DNA of 64,000 bases, taken from Microbacteriaceae bacterium. GTDB lineage: Bacteria; Actinomycetota; Actinomycetes; Actinomycetales; Microbacteriaceae. The DNA is taken from NCBI GenBank assembly GCA_019638805.1, contig JAHBTA010000004.1, positions 1-64,000 on the forward strand. The letters run 5' to 3'. A program made the translations under genes and the position numbers. Position 1 is the stretch's first letter. Each line of letters opens with the position of its first letter. Under the pieces are notes generated by a model. It was not told where the DNA came from. It saw nothing but the letters and a program-made list of their open reading frames with translations, and searched no databases. Shown here piece by piece: positions 2,810-50,649 of the stretch.

Positions 2810-3096
2810 AACCCACTAACAAGAGATCCGCGCCGAATCAGACCGAGCGCGCAAGCCAGCTCATCGAGCTCTGGCTGACCCTCGACCTCGAGGCACAGCA
2901 CGCGACACTGGCCCGGCTCATCGCCGCCAGCGTCCACCCAGGCCCGGGTTCCGCCCTAGAGCGCTTCGCCGGAACGGGTGCGCTCGATGCACAGACCGCG
3001 CTGGAAGAGATCAACGAAGCCCGCGTCCCACTCGAGCAGGAAGTGTGGCTCGACACTCTCGGCCGGTTCGTGCTGCTCCGGGGAGGTCGCTCATGA
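2806..3096 (+). CDS. Hypothetical protein of the element, 96 residues
   Basis: The start is in an ATGA overlap with the preceding stop and has a strong ribosome site (GAAAGGAGGA at 2791-2800). The protein is mostly helical by composition, with SQLIELWLTLDLEAQHATLARLIA near the N-terminus and LEEINEARVPLEQEVWLDTL near the C-terminus. I do not recognise a family. Position between the replication-relaxation gene and another unknown suggests a role in element maintenance or transfer. Its ending TGA overlaps the next start. Confidence 0.65.
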   Translation: MKPTNKRSAPNQTERASQLIELWLTLDLEAQHATLARLIAASVHPGPGSALERFAGTGALDAQTALEEINEARVPLEQEVWLDTLGRFVLLRGGRS

Positions 3097-3899
3097 GCGA
3101 ACGCGAACCCGGCACCACTCACAACAACCGCAGCGGCAGCCCAGAACGGATGGCCCGCACCGCTGGCAGGTACGAGAACTGGATCGCCGAAGGCATCAGC
3201 GCCGCCCGGGAGGCGTCGAGCGAGATTGACCTCATGACCGCCCGCCTCATCGCACACACGCTCGGCAGGGCGACGGGACGTACCTCGGCGCTGGCCAACT
3301 TCGGTCGCACGGGCGATGGCGACTACGAAGCCCTGCGAGACGAATACCTCGCCCTCTACAGCGACCCGACCTCCCCTCCACTGATCCGCGAGTGGATCGA
3401 CTGGTTTGGCACCCACCTCGTCCAGCGTGAGCAGATCGGCAGCGGCAGGCGGTTCATGAACGAGCACCAGGCTCCTCAGCTTGACCGGCTTCTGGTTAGA
3501 GCCGATCTCGCTCTCGGCGAGCAGCACCTCTCCGTCCATGTGCCGGCGTCGACCCCGAGAGACGCCATCGATCAACTCGCCGGCACACTCCGAGAGCTCG
3601 GCGTCGACGGCGACGAGGCAATGCAGGCGTTCCTATCGCTCCCGGACGTGAACGCCCTGACCGATGACCTGACGGCTGCGTTCAGCGCCAGCTACGTCGA
3701 CACCTTCGACCGACTCGAAGACGCCGTCCACGGCCTGATGGAAGTCGACGAGTGGGAGAAGGACATCAACGAGTACGCCCACGAACGCGGCTTCTTCGTC
3801 GAAGGAGTCACCCCGGACTACGAGGTGCTCATCGAGCGCGTCCGTGACGCCTATGACCTCGTCGAGTGGAAGGGGGCAGTTCATGCCTTCTACACGTAG
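3093..3899 (+). CDS. Hypothetical protein of the element, 268 residues
   Basis: The start overlaps the previous stop (ATGA) with GGGAGG 7-12 nt upstream. The protein is acidic and helical. Its first part (YENWIAEGISAAREASSEIDLMTARLIAHTL) echoes the layout of the preceding small protein: helix, then TARLIAHTLGRATG, then a segment ending in EWIDWFGTHLV. This suggests the two may be distantly related or duplicated. The C-terminal half has several D/E-rich stretches such as EVDEWEKDINEYA. No catalytic motif or membrane helix is evident. Function unknown. Confidence 0.65.
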   Translation: MSEREPGTTHNNRSGSPERMARTAGRYENWIAEGISAAREASSEIDLMTARLIAHTLGRATGRTSALANFGRTGDGDYEALRDEYLALYSDPTSPPLIREWIDWFGTHLVQREQIGSGRRFMNEHQAPQLDRLLVRADLALGEQHLSVHVPASTPRDAIDQLAGTLRELGVDGDEAMQAFLSLPDVNALTDDLTAAFSASYVDTFDRLEDAVHGLMEVDEWEKDINEYAHERGFFVEGVTPDYEVLIERVRDAYDLVEWKGAVHAFYT

Positions 3900-4170
3900 C
3901 CGCGCAGGGAGACGATCAACAGCGGCCAAAGGGGCGTTCTCTATGGGCAGACGGCAAACGATGTGGAATGGTCAACAGGCCCGGAATTCCGGGCCTGACG
4001 AGGTAAAATGGGAGGGTAAACGGAGAACGCAACCGATGGCGAATCATGCATCGGGCATGCGCCTCGGCCCGCTGAATGACGGGGCGCCCACTCCACCACA
4101 ACCTCTCTCTCGAAACCGAGTAGTCGCTCGTCTCGAGGCTGTCCTCACCACGGAAGGAGGGCAGCCATGA
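3883..4170 (+). CDS. Possible 95-residue protein upstream of the recombinase
   Basis: The frame opens 17 bp inside the previous gene with AAGGGGG 6 nt upstream, and ends in an ATGA overlap with the recombinase start. The N-terminal half is basic (RSRAGRR, KWEGKRR). The second half, from an internal ATG at 4036, reads GMRLGPLNDGAPTPPQPLSRN and then ARLEAVLTTEGG. The same DNA contains a perfect 22-bp palindrome and a TAAAAT box. The 5' part may therefore be a promoter region, with only the part from 4036 (44 residues) translated. Confidence 0.35.
   Translation: MPSTRSRAGRRSTAAKGAFSMGRRQTMWNGQQARNSGPDEVKWEGKRRTQPMANHASGMRLGPLNDGAPTPPQPLSRNRVVARLEAVLTTEGGQP
3976..3997. promoter_or_regulatory. 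22-bp perfect palindrome followed by a -10-like TAAAAT
   Basis: CAGGCCCGGAA is followed directly by its exact complement TTCCGGGCCTG. TAAAAT lies 6 bp downstream at 4004-4009, unusually AT-rich for this DNA. It sits about 170 bp before the recombinase start, as expected for an operator or attenuating hairpin controlling recombinase expression. No U-run follows, so a simple terminator is less likely. Confidence 0.45.
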
Positions 4171-7100
4171 GCATGCCCGAACTCGACCCGCCAGAAACTC
4201 CCTCGGCCTTCGTTGCGGCTCCCCCACGGATGCCAAGACCTCGGCCAGCAGAGACGCACGCGGCTGAGCAGATGATGGTGGCGAACCAAATCGCCGAAGC
4301 AATCGCTCCTACCGGATCTCGCGCGGTGATTTACCTGCGGGTCTCGTCCAAAGGCCAGGTGAACACCGACTACGACCCCGAGGGCATCTCCATCCCCGCC
4401 CAACGGATCTCCTGCCAACGCAGAGCCGAACAACTCGGACTGACCGTCATCGCTGAATACGTCGAGGCGGGCATCTCTGGGACCGAGATGAGCAAGCGCG
4501 TCGCCTTCCAGCAGATGCTTGAACGGATCCGCCGCGACAAAGATGTCGACTACGTCATCGTCTACAAGCTCTCCCGCTTCGCCCGCAACCGCACCGACGA
4601 CGCGATCGTGATGGCCGACCTGCAGAAGCGCGGGGTGACCCTCGTCTCGGCAACCGAGTCGATCGACTCCACCCCAGTCGGGCAGCTCATGCACGGCATC
4701 CTCGCCGCGTTCAATGAATACCGCTCCCGCGAGGACGGAGCCGATATCGCCTACAAGATGGGCCAGAAAGCCAAGAACGGTGGCACCCTCGGCAAAGCAC
4801 CCATGGGATACGTCAACACCCTCGAACGAATCGAGGGTCGCGAGTTCCGCGGCATCGCCATCGACGAAGAACGCGCACCATTCGTCAAGCTCGCTTTCGA
4901 GCTCTTCGACAGGGGCGAGTACTCCATGGAGGACATCGCCGACATCCTCACCGAACGCGGACTCGAGACTCGCGCCACCGCTCGTCGACCCGCCGGGCCA
5001 GTGTCCAGTTCCAAGATCTCCAGGATGCTCCGCGACCCGTACTACGTCGGCGACATCACCTACCGCGGCGAGACCTACGAAGGACGCCACCCCGCCCTCA
5101 TCGATCGGGCGTTGTTCGAGCGCGTCCAGCAACGCCTCGCAGCGTCCGGTCGAGCCGGCGAACGCAAGCGCATCTACCCGCACTATCTCAAGGGAACCCT
5201 CTGGTGCGGCGAGTGCTACACGGTGCGGGGACGCATCGACAAGCGCATGATCATCCAACGCACCATCGGCAAAGGCGGCAACGAATACTTCTACTTCTTC
5301 TGCCGCGGCAGACAGGAAGGCATCTGCGACTCGCGCCACCTCCCCTTCGATGCTGTTGAAGACCAAGTGATCGAGCACTACCGCACCGTGCGACTGAAGC
5401 CGCAGTTCATCGAGAGCGTGCAGCAACAGATCGACGAGGTACTCGACGACCAAGCTGGATCCCAGCGCCAGCTGCGCGAGCAACTCCAAGGGCAGATCGC
5501 CCGGCTCCAGACCCGCGTCGACAACCTCATCGACCTCGTCGCCGACGGCGGCATCGCCGGATCGAAGGCACGGGAGAAGATCACCGAGATCGAACGAGAG
5601 CGAGCCGGACTTGAGGCACGACTCTCCACCATCGACGACGACATCTCGATCGGCGCCGACTTCATCCGAGGCTGGCTCGAACTCCTTCGTGACCCCTACG
5701 AGCTCTACCTCAAGGCCACCAACGAGATGCGCCGCGACCTCAACCAGGCCATCTTCAAGAAGATCTTCGTCATCGATCAAGACCGCGCCCAATCCGAACT
5801 CCAAGAGCCCGTGCGGCTACTCCTCGAAGCGCAAGCCGAATGGGCAGCCTCCCTCGGCCTCGGAATCGACGCCCACCAAAGTAAAAGCGACGCCGAAGCG
5901 TCGCTGGATCATGCAGTAACCGGAGAAGACCGACTAGCGACCGTGGAAAGGGCCCATAGTTCTAGTAAGCGTTCTCTGGTGCCCCTGGAGGGACTCGAAC
6001 CCCCAACCCTTTCCTTAGGACGGAACTGCTCTTCCATTGAGCTACAGAGGCTGACCGGTCGAGTCTACCGAGCGCCAGCCCCGCACTTCCCAGGCCCCTG
6101 CTGTTGCATATCCGACACACGTGTGTCGACTTTGCAACACTCACGGCAGATCAAGCACGACAGCCGGAGGCGCATCCGGTGCGTGCGGTCGTCCCTCGGC
6201 GAAGATCGCCGTGACCGTCAGATGAGCCCCCGGAGGCCGACGATGATGTCGTCGCGTTCGAGCGCCGTCCCCACGATCACACGCTCGCGAACGTGTCGCC
6301 CCAGACCAGCACTCCGCGCTTGGCGACCGCCCCCCTCACCCCCAGACCAACCCCGCGACACCCTTCCCCAGCAGCACCACGCTGCCCGCCGCCGCCACCA
6401 CCATGAGGCACCGGACGGCCGCCTCCCGCGAGAGCCTCCGCGCGATGGGGACACTCACCACGAGACCCACGGCCACCGACCCGAGCAGCACCCCCGCAAC
6501 GACCGGCGTCACCGGCGGAAGCCCCTTCATCACGACCGCCGCGACGTTGACCAGCAGCCAGCACACCTGCGTCGAGGCGACGTAGCTGGTCATCGACCAG
6601 CGCGACGCCACCGCATAGGCGCCGACCAGCGGCCCGGCCTGGGCGACCGTGCCGTTCGCGATGCCGCTCAGCACCCCCGCCGCGATCACCCCCAGCCTGC
6701 CGCGCATGAGCCACGACCGTGCCAGCACGTCGACCGTGAACAGTGCGGCGAGCATGACCGCCCCGGTGGCGATCTGCAGCACCGCGCCCGGCAACTGGAA
6801 CGACAGGACGACTCCCAGCGGGGTGACGGCCAGGGCGATCCCGGTGAGGGCGATCGTGCGCGGCCACTCCACGTACCGCCAGCAGCTGATCAGCACCACG
6901 AGAGAGCACAGCGCGGCCAGCGCGTGCAGCGCCAGCACTCCCCCCATCGGCCCGAGCAGCAGGATGAGCGCGGGCGCGGAGGCTCCCCCGAACCCGATGC
7001 CTGTGATCCGCTGGAGCACCGCCCCGACGAACACGGCCGCCGCCGCCAGAGCGACGAGCGCGATCTCAGTCACGAAGCTCGACGGCACCGTCCACGCGCC

Positions 7101-7271
7101 GGACGAGCGCCGCCCCCGGGTTCTCGGCCACCTCATCCGGCAGCAGTGCCTGCGGGAACCCCTGGAACGCGACGGGCCGGAGGAACCGCGCGATCGCGGC
7201 CGTGCCCACCGACGTGGCGCCCGGCGCGGTCGTCGCCGGGTACGGCCCGCCGTGCTGCTGCGCGAACGTGA
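4167..7271 (+). CDS. Large serine recombinase (site-specific integrase); open frame runs on past the element end
   Basis: The first about 590 residues are a complete large serine recombinase. The resolvase domain carries the catalytic Ser in YLRVSSKGQ, with SRFARNRTD and ATESIDSTPVGQ further on. A recombinase domain begins LGKAPMGYVN, then come a zinc ribbon (LWCGECY and later FFCRGRQEGIC) and a long coiled coil (QLREQLQGQIARLQTRVDNL). It should catalyse integration and excision of this element. The frame has no stop before 7269. It reads through the tRNA-Arg gene at 5977-6051 (giving the artefact VPLEGLEPPTLSLGRNC) and then antisense to TSUP genes. The real protein probably ends near 5960 or used a stop lost on integration. 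Residues beyond that are not functional sequence. Confidence 0.75.
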   Translation: MSMPELDPPETPSAFVAAPPRMPRPRPAETHAAEQMMVANQIAEAIAPTGSRAVIYLRVSSKGQVNTDYDPEGISIPAQRISCQRRAEQLGLTVIAEYVEAGISGTEMSKRVAFQQMLERIRRDKDVDYVIVYKLSRFARNRTDDAIVMADLQKRGVTLVSATESIDSTPVGQLMHGILAAFNEYRSREDGADIAYKMGQKAKNGGTLGKAPMGYVNTLERIEGREFRGIAIDEERAPFVKLAFELFDRGEYSMEDIADILTERGLETRATARRPAGPVSSSKISRMLRDPYYVGDITYRGETYEGRHPALIDRALFERVQQRLAASGRAGERKRIYPHYLKGTLWCGECYTVRGRIDKRMIIQRTIGKGGNEYFYFFCRGRQEGICDSRHLPFDAVEDQVIEHYRTVRLKPQFIESVQQQIDEVLDDQAGSQRQLREQLQGQIARLQTRVDNLIDLVADGGIAGSKAREKITEIERERAGLEARLSTIDDDISIGADFIRGWLELLRDPYELYLKATNEMRRDLNQAIFKKIFVIDQDRAQSELQEPVRLLLEAQAEWAASLGLGIDAHQSKSDAEASLDHAVTGEDRLATVERAHSSSKRSLVPLEGLEPPTLSLGRNCSSIELQRLTGRVYRAPAPHFPGPCCCISDTRVSTLQHSRQIKHDSRRRIRCVRSSLGEDRRDRQMSPRRPTMMSSRSSAVPTITRSRTCRPRPALRAWRPPPSPPDQPRDTLPQQHHAARRRHHHEAPDGRLPREPPRDGDTHHETHGHRPEQHPRNDRRHRRKPLHHDRRDVDQQPAHLRRGDVAGHRPARRHRIGADQRPGLGDRAVRDAAQHPRRDHPQPAAHEPRPCQHVDREQCGEHDRPGGDLQHRARQLERQDDSQRGDGQGDPGEGDRARPLHVPPAADQHHERAQRGQRVQRQHSPHRPEQQDERGRGGSPEPDACDPLEHRPDEHGRRRQSDERDLSHEARRHRPRAGRAPPPGSRPPHPAAVPAGTPGTRRAGGTARSRPCPPTWRPARSSPGTARRAAART
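5977..6051 (-). tRNA. tRNA-Arg (anticodon CCT)
   Basis: On the minus strand the acceptor GCCTCTG pairs with CAGGGGC, followed by A and an encoded CCA. The D arm is GCTC-loop-GAGC. The anticodon loop GTCCTAA gives CCT. The T arm GGGGG-TTCGAGT-CCCTC pairs with one G-U. The first anticodon-stem pair is G-A, a small irregularity. The 3' end faces the mobile element and is its presumed attachment site. Confidence 0.92.
6103..6138. promoter_or_regulatory. 36-bp dyad upstream of tRNA-Arg
   Basis: The outer arms GTTGCA and TGCAAC flank a perfect 16-bp palindrome CGACACACGTGTGTCG; both share one exact centre between 6120 and 6121. It lies in the 284-bp space between the tRNA 5' end and the TSUP stop, which otherwise shows nothing coding. 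It may be an operator or a transcription-ending hairpin of the catabolic operon. Confidence 0.45.
6336..7073 (-). CDS. TSUP-family (TauE/SafE-like) anion exporter
   Basis: A 245-residue integral membrane protein with about eight hydrophobic segments and the typical early motif RITGIGFGG, followed by PALILLLGPMGG. TSUP proteins export or import small anions such as sulfite, sulfolactate or other organic acids. It is the last gene of the catabolic operon. The GTG start at 7073 overlaps the aldehyde dehydrogenase stop by 8 bp (GTGACTGA) and puts the first helix directly at the N-terminus; an upstream ATG at 7136 would add 21 residues without hydrophobic character. Substrate unknown; the operon context suggests efflux of an acidic pathway product. 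Confidence 0.75.
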   Translation of the reverse strand: MTEIALVALAAAAVFVGAVLQRITGIGFGGASAPALILLLGPMGGVLALHALAALCSLVVLISCWRYVEWPRTIALTGIALAVTPLGVVLSFQLPGAVLQIATGAVMLAALFTVDVLARSWLMRGRLGVIAAGVLSGIANGTVAQAGPLVGAYAVASRWSMTSYVASTQVCWLLVNVAAVVMKGLPPVTPVVAGVLLGSVAVGLVVSVPIARRLSREAAVRCLMVVAAAGSVVLLGKGVAGLVWG

Positions 7272-8517
7272 CGCTCACGCCGGTCGGCCACTGGTTCCAC
7301 AGCAGCCGCCCCGCCTTCTCGCGCAGCTCGTCGACGAGCGCCGGGACGATCTCGTCGTCCTCCTCGCCCGCGATGGTCGCGGTCAGCTGCCCCTCGATGC
7401 CGCGGGCGAAACCTACCAAGTCGGTTTCCGCGCGGTACGTCGCCACCAGCACGGTCGGGCCGAAGCACTCCTGGAAGAGCTCGTCCCGGTGCGCGGTCAG
7501 CGCCTCAAGGGTGGTCAGCAGGACGGTCGGGGACGGCGCCGGCCCGAGCGGGTCGTCGCCCTCGGCGATCACCTCGACCGCATCGTGCGAGCGCAGATCC
7601 TGCAGGGCCCCGACATACCCGTCATGGATGCGGTCGTTGAGCATCCGCTGCCCTTCCGGCAACGGCGCCCCCCGCAGCGATTCGACGATCGCGGACCCCT
7701 CGGGCACCAGCAGAACCCCCGGCTTGGTGCAGAACTGCCCGGAGCCGAGCGTCACCGACGCCATGGCGTCGCGGGCGATGTCGGCTCCGCGCGTGCGGGC
7801 CGCGGCCTCGGTCACGAACACCGGGTTCACGCTGCCGAGCTCCCCGAAGAAGGGGATCGGGTCGGGTCGGCTCACCGCGATGTCGAAGAGCGCCCGCCCG
7901 CCGGGGATCGACCCGGTGAACGAGCCCGCCTTGACCCGCGGGTCCCGGAGGATCCGGATGCCGTCCTCCCGCCCCTCGACCAGCGCGAAGACGCCCTCGG
8001 GCGCCCCGGCGCCGCGCAGGGCATCCACGACGACGCGCGCCGTGCGGCGCGAGAGCTCCGGGTGACCGGCGTGCGCCTTGACGATGACGCTCGCGCCCGC
8101 GGCGAGCGCCGACGCCGTGTCGCCGCCGGCCACGCTGAAGGCGAACGGGAAGTTGCTCGCCGCGTACACGATGACCGGCCCGACCGCCTGGGAGGTGCGG
8201 CGCAGATCGGGCCGGGGCCCCATCCCCCAGTCCGGGTCGGCGTGGTCGACGCGCACGTCGAGGTAGCCGCCGTCGCGCAGCACGTCGCCGAACAGGCGCA
8301 GCTGGAAGGTCGTGCGCGCCAGCTCCCCGCGCAGCCGAGCCTCGGCGAGATGCGTCTCGGCGCGGGCCACCTCGATCAGTTCGTCCGCCGCGGCGTCCAG
8401 CGCATCCGCGACCGCGGCGAGCCCGTCGGCCCGCGTCGCCCGCGCTACCCGCGACCACACGCGGTGCGCGGTCGCGGCGGCCGCCACGATCGCGTCCGGG
8501 CCCTCAGGCTTCGTCAC
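7066..8517 (-). CDS. NADP-type aldehyde dehydrogenase, alpha-ketoglutaric semialdehyde dehydrogenase-like
   Basis: A 483-residue aldehyde dehydrogenase. The catalytic Cys is in GSGQFCTKPG, the general base Glu in FFGELGSVNP, the active-site Asn in YAASNFPFAF and the cofactor Lys in VIVKAHAGHP. These motifs match the subfamily that oxidises 2-ketoglutarate semialdehyde and similar short carboxylated aldehydes. The start is GTG at 8517, 9 bp after the MDR gene. With a DapA-family enzyme in the same regulon, oxidation of a semialdehyde made from a 2-keto-3-deoxy sugar acid is plausible. A sulfolactaldehyde-type substrate cannot be excluded given the TSUP neighbour. Confidence 0.82.
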   Translation of the reverse strand: MTKPEGPDAIVAAAATAHRVWSRVARATRADGLAAVADALDAAADELIEVARAETHLAEARLRGELARTTFQLRLFGDVLRDGGYLDVRVDHADPDWGMGPRPDLRRTSQAVGPVIVYAASNFPFAFSVAGGDTASALAAGASVIVKAHAGHPELSRRTARVVVDALRGAGAPEGVFALVEGREDGIRILRDPRVKAGSFTGSIPGGRALFDIAVSRPDPIPFFGELGSVNPVFVTEAAARTRGADIARDAMASVTLGSGQFCTKPGVLLVPEGSAIVESLRGAPLPEGQRMLNDRIHDGYVGALQDLRSHDAVEVIAEGDDPLGPAPSPTVLLTTLEALTAHRDELFQECFGPTVLVATYRAETDLVGFARGIEGQLTATIAGEEDDEIVPALVDELREKAGRLLWNQWPTGVSVTFAQQHGGPYPATTAPGATSVGTAAIARFLRPVAFQGFPQALLPDEVAENPGAALVRRVDGAVELRD

Positions 8518-47886: not shown

Positions 47887-50649
47887 GTGACCCCATCCCC
47901 CCGCCGGCGCTTCCGCGCGCCCTGGCTCGCCCTTCCCCTCGCCGCGGCGCTCGCGCTCGGCGCAGCGACGCCCGCCTTCGCCGACGACGAGGCGCCGACC
48001 GCGGAGCCGGTCTCCTCGGCCGCCGCCGACCCGGCCCCGGCGCCCCCGGCTCCTGCCCCGGCACCCCCGGCTCCTGCCCCGGCCCCTGCGCCCGCACCCG
48101 CCGGCCCGCCGGCCGAAACCCCCGCGCCGGCGGATCCCCCCGCGCCCGAGCCCACCGGCACGCCCGAACCGACCGAGGCTCCGACTCCCGAGCCGACCGA
48201 GACTCCCGCACCGGACGAGACCACGGATTCCCTGTCCACCCAGGCGCTCCGCACCGCGGAGACCTCGGAGCGCGACATCGCGTCGGCCGTCGTGACCCCG
48301 TCCATCTCGGTCGCGCCCTCCACCGGGCTCGCCGACGAGGCGATCGTCACGGTATCCGTCACGCTGCCCGCGACCATCACGGCGACCCTCGGCGCGAGCG
48401 CGGGAACCGAGCTGACGACGGGCGTATACGTCATGTACTGCGTGCAGCCCGCCGGGGCGGTGGGCACGGCCGGCGGCCGCGCGACCGGCGCCCAGTGCGA
48501 CGGCACGCGCCAGCTCGCCCTGTCCTCGGCCGCGACCCCCTGCGGCACCACGGTCGTCGGCAGCGTGACCGACGGGGCCTGGACCTTCAGCGCGAACATC
48601 GCCGCGACGGATGCCTTCGGCACCCACTCCTGCGTCGACGCGACCGCGGCCGGCTCGGGCGGTGAGCAGTGCGGGATCTTCGTGCGGCTCTACCACGTGT
48701 TCAACGCCGGCAACGTGGCGAACCCCTACGTCTACGACATGTTCATCCCGGTGGCCTTCGCGGCTCCCCCGGTCTACGGGGTCACCGTGACCCCGACCAT
48801 GGGCCTCGATGACGGCGAAACCGTCACGGTCAACGGCACGCTGCCCGCCACCATCACGGCGACCTTGGGTGCCAGCACGGGTCAGGCCCTGACCACGGGT
48901 GTCTACATCATGTACTGCGCCAAGCCCGCCGACCCGGTCGGCACCGCGGGCGGTCGCGCGACCGGCGCCCAGTGCGACGGCACGCGCCAGCAGGCGCTGT
49001 CCTCGGCAGCGACCCCCTACGGCACGACCGTGGTCGGCAGCGTCAGCGCCGGCACCTGGACCTTCTCGAGCACGCTCGACGTGACGGACGCCTTCGGCAC
49101 CCACACCTGCGTCGACGCGACCGCGGCGAGTGCGGGCGGCGAGCAGTGCGGGATCTTCGTGCGGCTCTACCACGTGTTCAACGCCGGCAACGTCGCGAAC
49201 CCGTACCTCTACGACCAGCTCGTCCCGGTGACCTTCACCGCGCCCTCCACCGGGGGCACGGGAGGCACCGGCGGGACCGGCGGCACGGGTGGTACCGGTG
49301 GCACGGGCTCCGCGGCTCCGCGGCTGAGCGTCAGCCCCTCGAGCGTCTCGCTCAACGGCGCGACGACCGTCACGATCCGCGGAACCGGCTACACGGGCGC
49401 GGGCACCGCCAACGGCGTCTACGTCTCGATCGGCAGCTCGTCGGTCTGGCAGCCCGGCCAGGTGCCGAGCCAGGGCGGATGGGTCGCGAGCGGATGGGTC
49501 ACCCCCGGCGCCCTCAGCGGAGGAGCGTTCTCGACGACCCTGACCATCCCGGCCGGATCGCTCAGCGCCGGCGTCAGCTACGGCGTGGCGACCTTCGCCG
49601 CGCACGGCCTGGCCCTCACCGACCGGAGCCTGGACGCCTGGGCGCCCCTCACGGTCGTGAACGCGGGCACCTCGTCGTCGGAGGAGGAGCAGGATCGGGG
49701 TCCGGCATCCGCCCCGCCCACCGACGAGGGCATCGAGCTGTCGAGCACCCAGCTGAACGAGGGCGGCGAGTTCTCGGCCAGCGCGGGCGGCTTCGAGCCG
49801 AACGAGGAGAACATCCTCGTGGTCGTGTACTCCGACCCGATCGTGCTCGCGAATGACGCGCGGGCCGACGCGGAGGGCGTCGTGCACTGGACCGGGCGGC
49901 TGCCGTACGGGCTGACCGGTTCGCACACGCTGACCTTCCAGGGGTCGTCCGACGCGGGCGTTCCGATCGAGATCACTCCGCGCGAGGTGCTCGGCTGCAC
50001 GATCGACGACGCGAGCCTGGAGTGGGGCTTCAAGGAGTCCTTCCGCTCCTACGTCGACGGCTCGATCGCCAACGGCGAGTGGACGACGGCGGGCGACGCG
50101 AGCTACGAGACGCCGACGTTCACCTGGTCCAGCGGCGCGGGCGATCGCGCCGAGTCCGGGGATGCCGTGGTCGCCTTCACCGGCTCCGTCCGGTTCACCG
50201 GGCACTCCGGCGCGCTCGACACCACGATCGCGAACCCGGTGATCGAGGTCGCCGACGACACCGCGACCCTGCTGCTGGATGTCTCGGGCACCACCCAGGA
50301 CGGCCGCGACCTCGTGCGGGTCGCCGTGCCGTTCGCGGAGCTCGACCTGTCCGACGTCGATCCCTCGGCGCAGGACGGGGTCATCCGGCTGGCCGAGATC
50401 CCGGCGACGCTGACCGCCCAGGGCGCCGAGGTGTTCGGCACCTACCCGGCGGGCGAGGAGCTCGACGCGGTGACGCTCACACTGCCCGAGGGCGCCTGCG
50501 GCACGCAGGCTGCGGCAGCGGTCGACGACCTGGCCGCGCCCGAGACGGGCGCCGGAGCGTCGTGGGTGATCTGGTTGATCGCCGCGCTCGTGCTGGCGGT
50601 CGCGGCGGCCGTGGTCGCGGCGATCCTGCTGCGGCGTCGGCGGGCCTGA
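47887..50649 (+). CDS. Surface HtaA-domain haem-binding protein
   Basis: A 920-residue wall or membrane protein. After the signal peptide ending AATPAFA comes a Pro/Ala/Glu-rich stretch (to about residue 120). Two repeats of about 135 residues follow, each with YCxxPA, GGRATGAQCDGTRQ and GEQCGIFVRLYHVFNAGNV. A Gly-Thr-Gly linker, an Ig-like part (PRLSVSPSSVSLNGATTVTI) and another β-domain come next. From about residue 700 an HtaA domain reads LEWGFKESFRSYVDGSI. The C-terminus has APETG, a hydrophobic helix and RRRRA, like a sortase signal. HtaA domains bind haem in iron uptake. Start GTG; two DtxR boxes precede it. No haem ABC genes adjoin. Confidence 0.82.
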   Translation: MTPSPRRRFRAPWLALPLAAALALGAATPAFADDEAPTAEPVSSAAADPAPAPPAPAPAPPAPAPAPAPAPAGPPAETPAPADPPAPEPTGTPEPTEAPTPEPTETPAPDETTDSLSTQALRTAETSERDIASAVVTPSISVAPSTGLADEAIVTVSVTLPATITATLGASAGTELTTGVYVMYCVQPAGAVGTAGGRATGAQCDGTRQLALSSAATPCGTTVVGSVTDGAWTFSANIAATDAFGTHSCVDATAAGSGGEQCGIFVRLYHVFNAGNVANPYVYDMFIPVAFAAPPVYGVTVTPTMGLDDGETVTVNGTLPATITATLGASTGQALTTGVYIMYCAKPADPVGTAGGRATGAQCDGTRQQALSSAATPYGTTVVGSVSAGTWTFSSTLDVTDAFGTHTCVDATAASAGGEQCGIFVRLYHVFNAGNVANPYLYDQLVPVTFTAPSTGGTGGTGGTGGTGGTGGTGSAAPRLSVSPSSVSLNGATTVTIRGTGYTGAGTANGVYVSIGSSSVWQPGQVPSQGGWVASGWVTPGALSGGAFSTTLTIPAGSLSAGVSYGVATFAAHGLALTDRSLDAWAPLTVVNAGTSSSEEEQDRGPASAPPTDEGIELSSTQLNEGGEFSASAGGFEPNEENILVVVYSDPIVLANDARADAEGVVHWTGRLPYGLTGSHTLTFQGSSDAGVPIEITPREVLGCTIDDASLEWGFKESFRSYVDGSIANGEWTTAGDASYETPTFTWSSGAGDRAESGDAVVAFTGSVRFTGHSGALDTTIANPVIEVADDTATLLLDVSGTTQDGRDLVRVAVPFAELDLSDVDPSAQDGVIRLAEIPATLTAQGAEVFGTYPAGEELDAVTLTLPEGACGTQAAAAVDDLAAPETGAGASWVIWLIAALVLAVAAAVVAAILLRRRRA

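Follow-up and report, generated by a model that had tools for sequence, protein, structure and literature searches.

We analysed a window of 64,000 nucleotides of DNA from a Microbacteriaceae bacterium (assembly GCA_019638805.1, contig JAHBTA010000004.1, positions 1 to 64,000), in which the gene for a large serine recombinase (LSR), belonging to an integrated element, runs into a tRNA gene of the host. The recombinase frame extends from 4167 to 7271 on the forward strand and encodes 1034 amino acids, with an ATG start and AAGGAGGG 5' of it; tRNA-Arg(CCT) was located by ARAGORN at 5977-6051 on the minus strand. The frame crosses this tRNA in antisense, giving the peptide VPLEGLEPPTLSLGRNC/VPLEGLEPPTLSLGRN, and then reads the antisense strand of two host genes, for a TauE/SafE (TSUP) permease (6336-7136, minus strand) and for an aldehyde dehydrogenase (7066-8517, minus strand). 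A preliminary description of this DNA had reported both the extent of the frame, which we recovered exactly, and its antisense course through the tRNA and the two host genes. The same description placed the end of the recombinase near 5960; we found instead that coding runs to an attachment core, inferred at 5981-5982, and would continue for about 140 codons beyond it in the circular form of the element. The window thus holds the recombinase half of a putative split gene (4167-5980, forward strand), comprising residues 1-604 and the first two bases of codon 605, followed by a host-coded read-through tail (5983-7271, forward strand) that bears no sign of selection. The tRNA, which is the integration target, is whole according to ARAGORN and identical in relatives, as in genomic islands that target tRNA genes.

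The residues encoded before the tRNA have the domains of an LSR. We identified a catalytic domain of the Resolvase type (PF00239, E = 4e-28), in which the nucleophilic serine S60 is invariant across 13 homologues, and a Recombinase domain (PF07508, E = 2e-16). The zinc ribbon profile PF13408 scored a little under its cut-off (23.6 against 25.3 bits), and the zinc-ribbon residues C347, C350, C379 and C387 are conserved in the same 13-homologue comparison, indicating that this domain is present. Long helices at residues 412-459 and 465-488 of the structure model correspond to a coiled coil. Modelled alone, the recombinase half forms a complete LSR fold over residues 46-565, followed by a disordered linker, and its profile matched the structure of the Listeria phage A118 integrase (4kis) through the zinc ribbon and coiled coil (E = 2e-11). 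The A118 integrase, which shares the domain plan to this point, reportedly has no C-terminal helix-turn-helix (HTH) and an attachment (att) site outside its gene.

We identified relatives of this recombinase mostly in Actinobacteria, with a few in Clostridia and other groups, and most of them end beside the antisense 3' end of a tRNA gene, for Arg, Ala, Val, Lys, Leu, Pro, His, Ser or Glu. Such a tRNA was present in 70 distinct cases, and in every one of them the recombinase frame continues into the tRNA without a stop; it enters in the phase that gives G-[LFI]-E-P in 64 and is counted in another phase in six. The linkers of 69 of these homologues, counted from the last conserved recombinase residue to the tRNA, contained no in-frame stop in 3,455 codons, compared to 233 stops in the two other forward frames, or about 117 expected per frame; the homologues are related and not independent trials, though their linker sequences differ widely. 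In three comparisons of the 60 codons that precede the core, the ratio of non-synonymous to synonymous substitution rates (dN/dS) was 0.32-0.36. The tail beyond the 3' base of the tRNA, in contrast, is 430 codons long in the window and 1 to 452 codons (median 31) in homologues. Because the linkers lack stops while the tails vary so widely, we conclude that the open frame is maintained as far as the tRNA but no further: openness before the tRNA exceeds what chance would give, openness after it does not, and the residues beyond the core are meaningless, host-coded products of GC-rich read-through. The preliminary description had offered, as one explanation, that GC-rich antisense DNA simply lacks stops; as a full account, in which a stop was lost and the frame crosses the tRNA by accident, this is very improbable, since it holds past the core but is refuted before it by the stop-free linkers, and since a conserved domain lies in the same frame at the other end of the element.

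We additionally noted that the pair L051 and L076 has no synonymous differences (pS 0.00) in the 60 linker codons nearest the core, against 0.24 just upstream, which suggests either constraint on the DNA itself (att site and terminator) or a recent exchange of ends. Two further LSRs in the window's own genome, G000:C2:47835-49481 (L205) and G000:C4:278709-280253 (L206), lie at tRNA-Ala(CGC) and tRNA-Ala(TGC) respectively and also read in frame into their tRNA. The clostridial homologues L065, L067 and L070 (an Oscillospiraceae metagenome-assembled genome, Catenibacillus and Merdimonas) enter tRNA-Leu and tRNA-Pro in frame; in the sequence around these loci, the other ends of the elements were not found with an HTH profile built from Actinobacteria.

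The conserved domain at the other end was recognised by mapping the far end of the G167 element against G434, a relative in which the tRNA directly adjoins the same flank. Reading inward from the G167 junction, we found a conserved frame of about 140 codons that starts HLLQVYSNP and contains two HTH units. The matching end in the window's own genome lies at C2:850-437 on the minus strand, at a contig end, and joining it in silico to the end on C5, the contig of the window, gave GTTCTAGTAAGCGTTCTCTGGT-GC-GCCTGCTGCACTCGTACTCGAAC and a protein of 744 residues (LSR-HTH). That C2 and C5 carry the two ends of one element is suggested by both breaks falling at contig ends and by the HTH on C2 being 72% identical to that of G212, which has a truncated recombinase 84% identical to the one in the window at the same tRNA. 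When the HTH tail of one relative was modelled, it formed two three-helix units at moderate confidence; the closest solved structure in both sequence and fold was 2lvs, a CRISPR-repeat-binding protein (Cbp1), with low TM-scores. A third contig end of the same genome, on C3 (719071-719379), carries an HTH near-identical to that of a relative of L205; at the C3, C2 and C5 contig ends the assembly seems to be broken within related elements.

An HTH profile search of 400 Microbacteriaceae genomes gave 129 hits. HTH and recombinase were paired when on the same contig within 120 kb; among 47 such pairings the HTH lay upstream on the same strand in 38, downstream on the same strand in six and on the opposite strand in three. 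Two of the six downstream cases are direct chromosomal fusions, in G299 and G409, with frames of 827 and 765 codons. In the G266 chromosome an HTH directly abuts the right end of another copy, forming an attP-type junction at which the C-terminus of a recombinase, there a remnant, and the HTH share one frame; further in-frame chromosomal junctions were identified in G374 and G047. The putative attachment core lies within coding sequence, with coding on both sides, as in integrases with an internal att site. The HTH itself evolves with dN/dS of 0.24-0.36, and the codon phase of GT plus core is equal in both halves wherever the far element arm (P') could be placed. Of two other candidates, a 745-codon frame with an HTH hit at G422:C1:201601 was rejected as a fusion, having no recombinase domain, and L054/L079 (Galbitalea) was rejected as a circular form, as the repeat at its contig end fits an insertion sequence in the tRNA half. 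Among phages, plasmids and viral contigs searched for the HTH or for fused genes, only weak HTH hits in Caulobacter phages were found.

These observations bear on whether the HTH is an independent gene, a regulator or directionality factor that starts at the core and agrees in frame with the recombinase only incidentally. Small regulators are common near att sites, a GTG codon stands at the junction, and expression from such a start could occur in the integrated state. However, the phase agrees in both halves even in G047, where the recombinase enters the tRNA in another phase and the HTH is found in the same shifted phase; together with the natural fused frames and the stop-free linker, this makes an independent gene highly unlikely, if a shade less so than read-through alone.

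The att site within the gene could be resolved into three parts. The element arm (P; 5959-5980, forward strand) consists of GTTCTAGT followed by 14 bases to the core, has an inverted-repeat partner at the other end, and shows the same geometry in other elements. It is followed by the probable crossover dinucleotide, GC (5981-5982, forward strand), the complement of tRNA bases 72 and 71, and by the host arm (B'; 5983-6001, forward strand), in which 10 bases precede ACTCGAACC, the antisense T-arm of the tRNA. In the closest relatives the T-arm motif is copied at each element end. The arms of many elements are inverted repeats of each other, with GATTGCAGTAAG and CTTACTGCAATC in G354 and a 16-base match in G021 as examples. 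The distance to the probable core is 14 and 15 bases for the element arms and 10 for the tRNA arm. In studied serine integrases the zinc-ribbon contact in attP is displaced outwards by about 5 bases relative to attB, and the spacing here resembles that offset. GT is followed by GC in Arg elements, by GG in Ala, Val and Lys elements and by CG in Pro elements. Where the two ends could be read (Arg, Ala and Pro elements) they carry an identical dinucleotide, which is why we place the crossover there. A crossover at the GT of TGGT, suggested by T-arm symmetry, was set aside, since the two bases that follow agree with the target tRNA at either end of the element, and the shifted dinucleotide also gives near-symmetric P arms. 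With the core at tRNA bases 71 and 72, the element would supply base 73 and CCA (5977-5980).

Within the recombinase linker, on the tRNA strand, we identified a hairpin, AGCGACGC-TTCG-GCGTCGCT followed by TTTACTTT (5877-5905, minus strand), as a likely terminator of the tRNA transcript. Terminator-like hairpins occur on this strand of the linker in 29 of 69 homologues, compared to 1 of 69 for a control stretch and 3.6 in shuffled sequences. The copying of the T-arm in the att arms may account for the many tRNA targets of these elements. In relatives of G167 (L144, L148, L149 and L143) several left ends stand in a row downstream of the same tRNA-Arg, and these arrays mark it as a hot spot of repeated integration.

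We propose the following mechanism. The free circle would carry the whole gene, encoding an enzyme of 744 amino acids in which the catalytic, Recombinase and zinc-ribbon domains and a coiled coil are connected through a flexible linker to a tandem HTH at the C-terminus; the junction of the circle would read GTTCTAGTAAGCGTTCTCTGGTGCGCCTGCTGC, after which the frame would stay open for about 140 codons. When attP recombines with the 3' end of tRNA-Arg(CCT), the gene would be cut at the boundary of linker and HTH. The recombinase half (604 residues) would stay at the tRNA, reading into it and gaining a host-coded tail, while the HTH half would be stranded at the far end of the element without a recombinase. 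The element end would also restore base 73 and CCA to the tRNA and bring its likely terminator. The full-length enzyme would be made when the element arrives in its circular form, and the truncated form would be left after insertion. As the recombinase half alone forms a complete LSR, the known integrase machinery would stay together and only an extra DNA-binding domain would be lost on integration.

This mechanism takes up the other explanation in the preliminary description, in which only the circle supplies a stop and integration alters the C-terminus. The rebuilt attP and the homologues support it, and the circle would contribute more than was proposed, a whole tandem-HTH domain and not just a stop. 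That description expected a stop soon after the circular junction; the stop lies about 140 codons on, contrary to the letter of this expectation, but the idea stands, because these codons form a conserved domain under purifying selection.

What the HTH does is less firmly indicated. It might help the circular enzyme to integrate, or control its own expression, and its loss would then favour the integrated state. The changed C-terminus could plausibly influence directionality. In a tentative reading that falls somewhat short of probable, the HTH would promote integration and its later loss would act as a brake. This reading draws on analogy with IntP of the Myxococcus phage Mx8, in which integration swaps a 112-residue C-terminus for 13 residues and the modified enzyme is reported as less active (PMC4701971, PMC4383910).

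The HTH could alternatively be a module that chooses which tRNA is used. In a test of 32 elements, none of 2000 label shuffles, which ignore relatedness, reached the observed effect, and the Pro-targeting G346 and G409 share 64% identity in the HTH with only 37% in the recombinase. The effect is small, however, and disappears below 40% recombinase identity (0.268 against 0.264), and G409 and G350, both Pro-targeting, are 76% identical in the recombinase but 17% in the HTH. Given the small effect and these clear counter-examples we do not claim a specificity module, and regard it as improbable. The halves do reassort: G499 and the fused gene of G409 are 99% identical in the recombinase yet 45% identical in the HTH, a pattern that recombination of tandem arrays at their att sites would be expected to produce.

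A better-surviving alternative keeps the same split gene but has the HTH serve excision or transcriptional autoregulation in place of integration. The tandem HTH does resemble DNA-binding regulators such as Cbp1 (2lvs). For a single copy, excision is an unlikely role, since intact protein would come only from the circle or a tandem array, but autoregulation remains compatible with the data; we consider this alternative unlikely overall, though less so than the others.

Several points weigh against the split-gene reading itself. No circular molecule was observed, and the full-length gene is known here from in-silico joining; the link between C2 and C5 crosses an assembly gap; and the anatomy is read from sequence. 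The P' arm could not be placed automatically in several pairs, and L055, L057 and L069 lack a recognisable downstream tRNA. Nonetheless, in-frame rejoining, att arms, conservation and the pairing of halves are directly visible in the compared sequences, and demonstrate at that level a gene that integration would split and excision would make whole again. We therefore consider it very probable that the att site lies inside the recombinase gene and that integration separates LSR from HTH.

Integrase genes that contain attP are already known, in the tyrosine recombinases of Mx8 and the archaeal SSV type and in the serine recombinases of streptococcal integrative and conjugative elements (ICEs) at rumA (PMC4701971, PMC4383910, PMC8371274). 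The rumA ICEs are similar to the present case in having a serine integrase with attP inside its gene, but target the protein gene rumA, where the element in the window targets tRNA-Arg, and the accessible text mentions no dedicated HTH (PMC4701971). Mx8 IntP likewise has attP inside the gene (PMC4701971, PMC4383910), but is a tyrosine recombinase with a fold unrelated to the LSR. The "suicidal" SSV-type integrases carry the recombination site in a gene that integration splits (PMC8371274); these too are tyrosine recombinases, unlike the window protein with its serine recombinase domains, and it is the catalytic domain that their split separates, in contrast to the LSR domains here, which are not parted. 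Integration at tRNA genes by serine recombinases is found in actinobacterial ICEs (AICEs) at tRNA-Leu (PMC3218068) and in Ralstonia phage RSM1 (PMC3816273), for which the accessible text describes neither a split gene nor an HTH; RSM1 differs further in its small serine recombinase and in an attP between ORF14 and ORF15 (PMC3816273). In 2011 the use of tRNA genes by serine recombinases was described as rare (PMC3218068). A 2014 database paper knew of no serine integrases targeting tRNA genes (PMC4383910), and a 2021 review placed recombinases that disrupt their own gene only in archaea (PMC8371274). Exceptions to both of the latter statements are on record, Mx8 and the rumA ICEs for own-gene disruption, and the tRNA-Leu AICEs and RSM1 for serine recombinases at tRNA genes. 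In the literature outside subscription journals and preprint servers, we did not find a description of a tRNA-targeting serine family whose circular form bears a dedicated HTH domain, and a large family of such LSR-HTH enzymes is apparently undescribed.

The window starts at the first base of C5, inside the element. Left of the recombinase we identified genes, all on the forward strand, for a type IV secretion system coupling ATPase of the TraD/TcpA type (52-1806; PF02534, E = 1.2e-6) and a replication-relaxation protein (1916-2809; PF13814, E = 7e-41), indicating that an integrated mobile element ends here with the recombinase as its last gene; an open reading frame without functional assignment (3045-3899) had no Pfam or NCBIfam match. 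Both these families are present, and the remaining element falls in the assembly gap; the element is integrative and probably conjugative or mobilizable. Genes of the ATPase type that resemble defence cargo were noted immediately inside the HTH end, at L154:52-417 in the same genome and at L066:4709-8860 in Arthrobacter sp. MA-N2; immediately outside the left end on C2, a type I restriction system is encoded (L154:920-8949). Elsewhere in the window, two adjacent direct repeats of about 477 bases each (48305-49245; 79-88% identical) are probably repeated domains within one protein.

The system combines own-gene disruption and serine tRNA targeting in one large bacterial family. Whether it represents a widespread clade of tRNA-targeting LSRs, with recognition of the near-universal T-arm, insertion acting as a switch, the intact enzyme found only in circles or tandem arrays, and array recombination reshuffling the halves, is evenly balanced in our judgement. 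For annotation, integrated copies should be expected to carry a false C-terminus (tails such as "GLEPPT" and "GFEPAT"), and a clone made from the integrated gene would lack the real C-terminal domain. The T-arm-directed arms suggest a way for one enzyme family to use many tRNAs, pointing to T-arm-directed serine integrases for genome engineering, and the split gene could provide a concrete model of directionality wired into gene structure.

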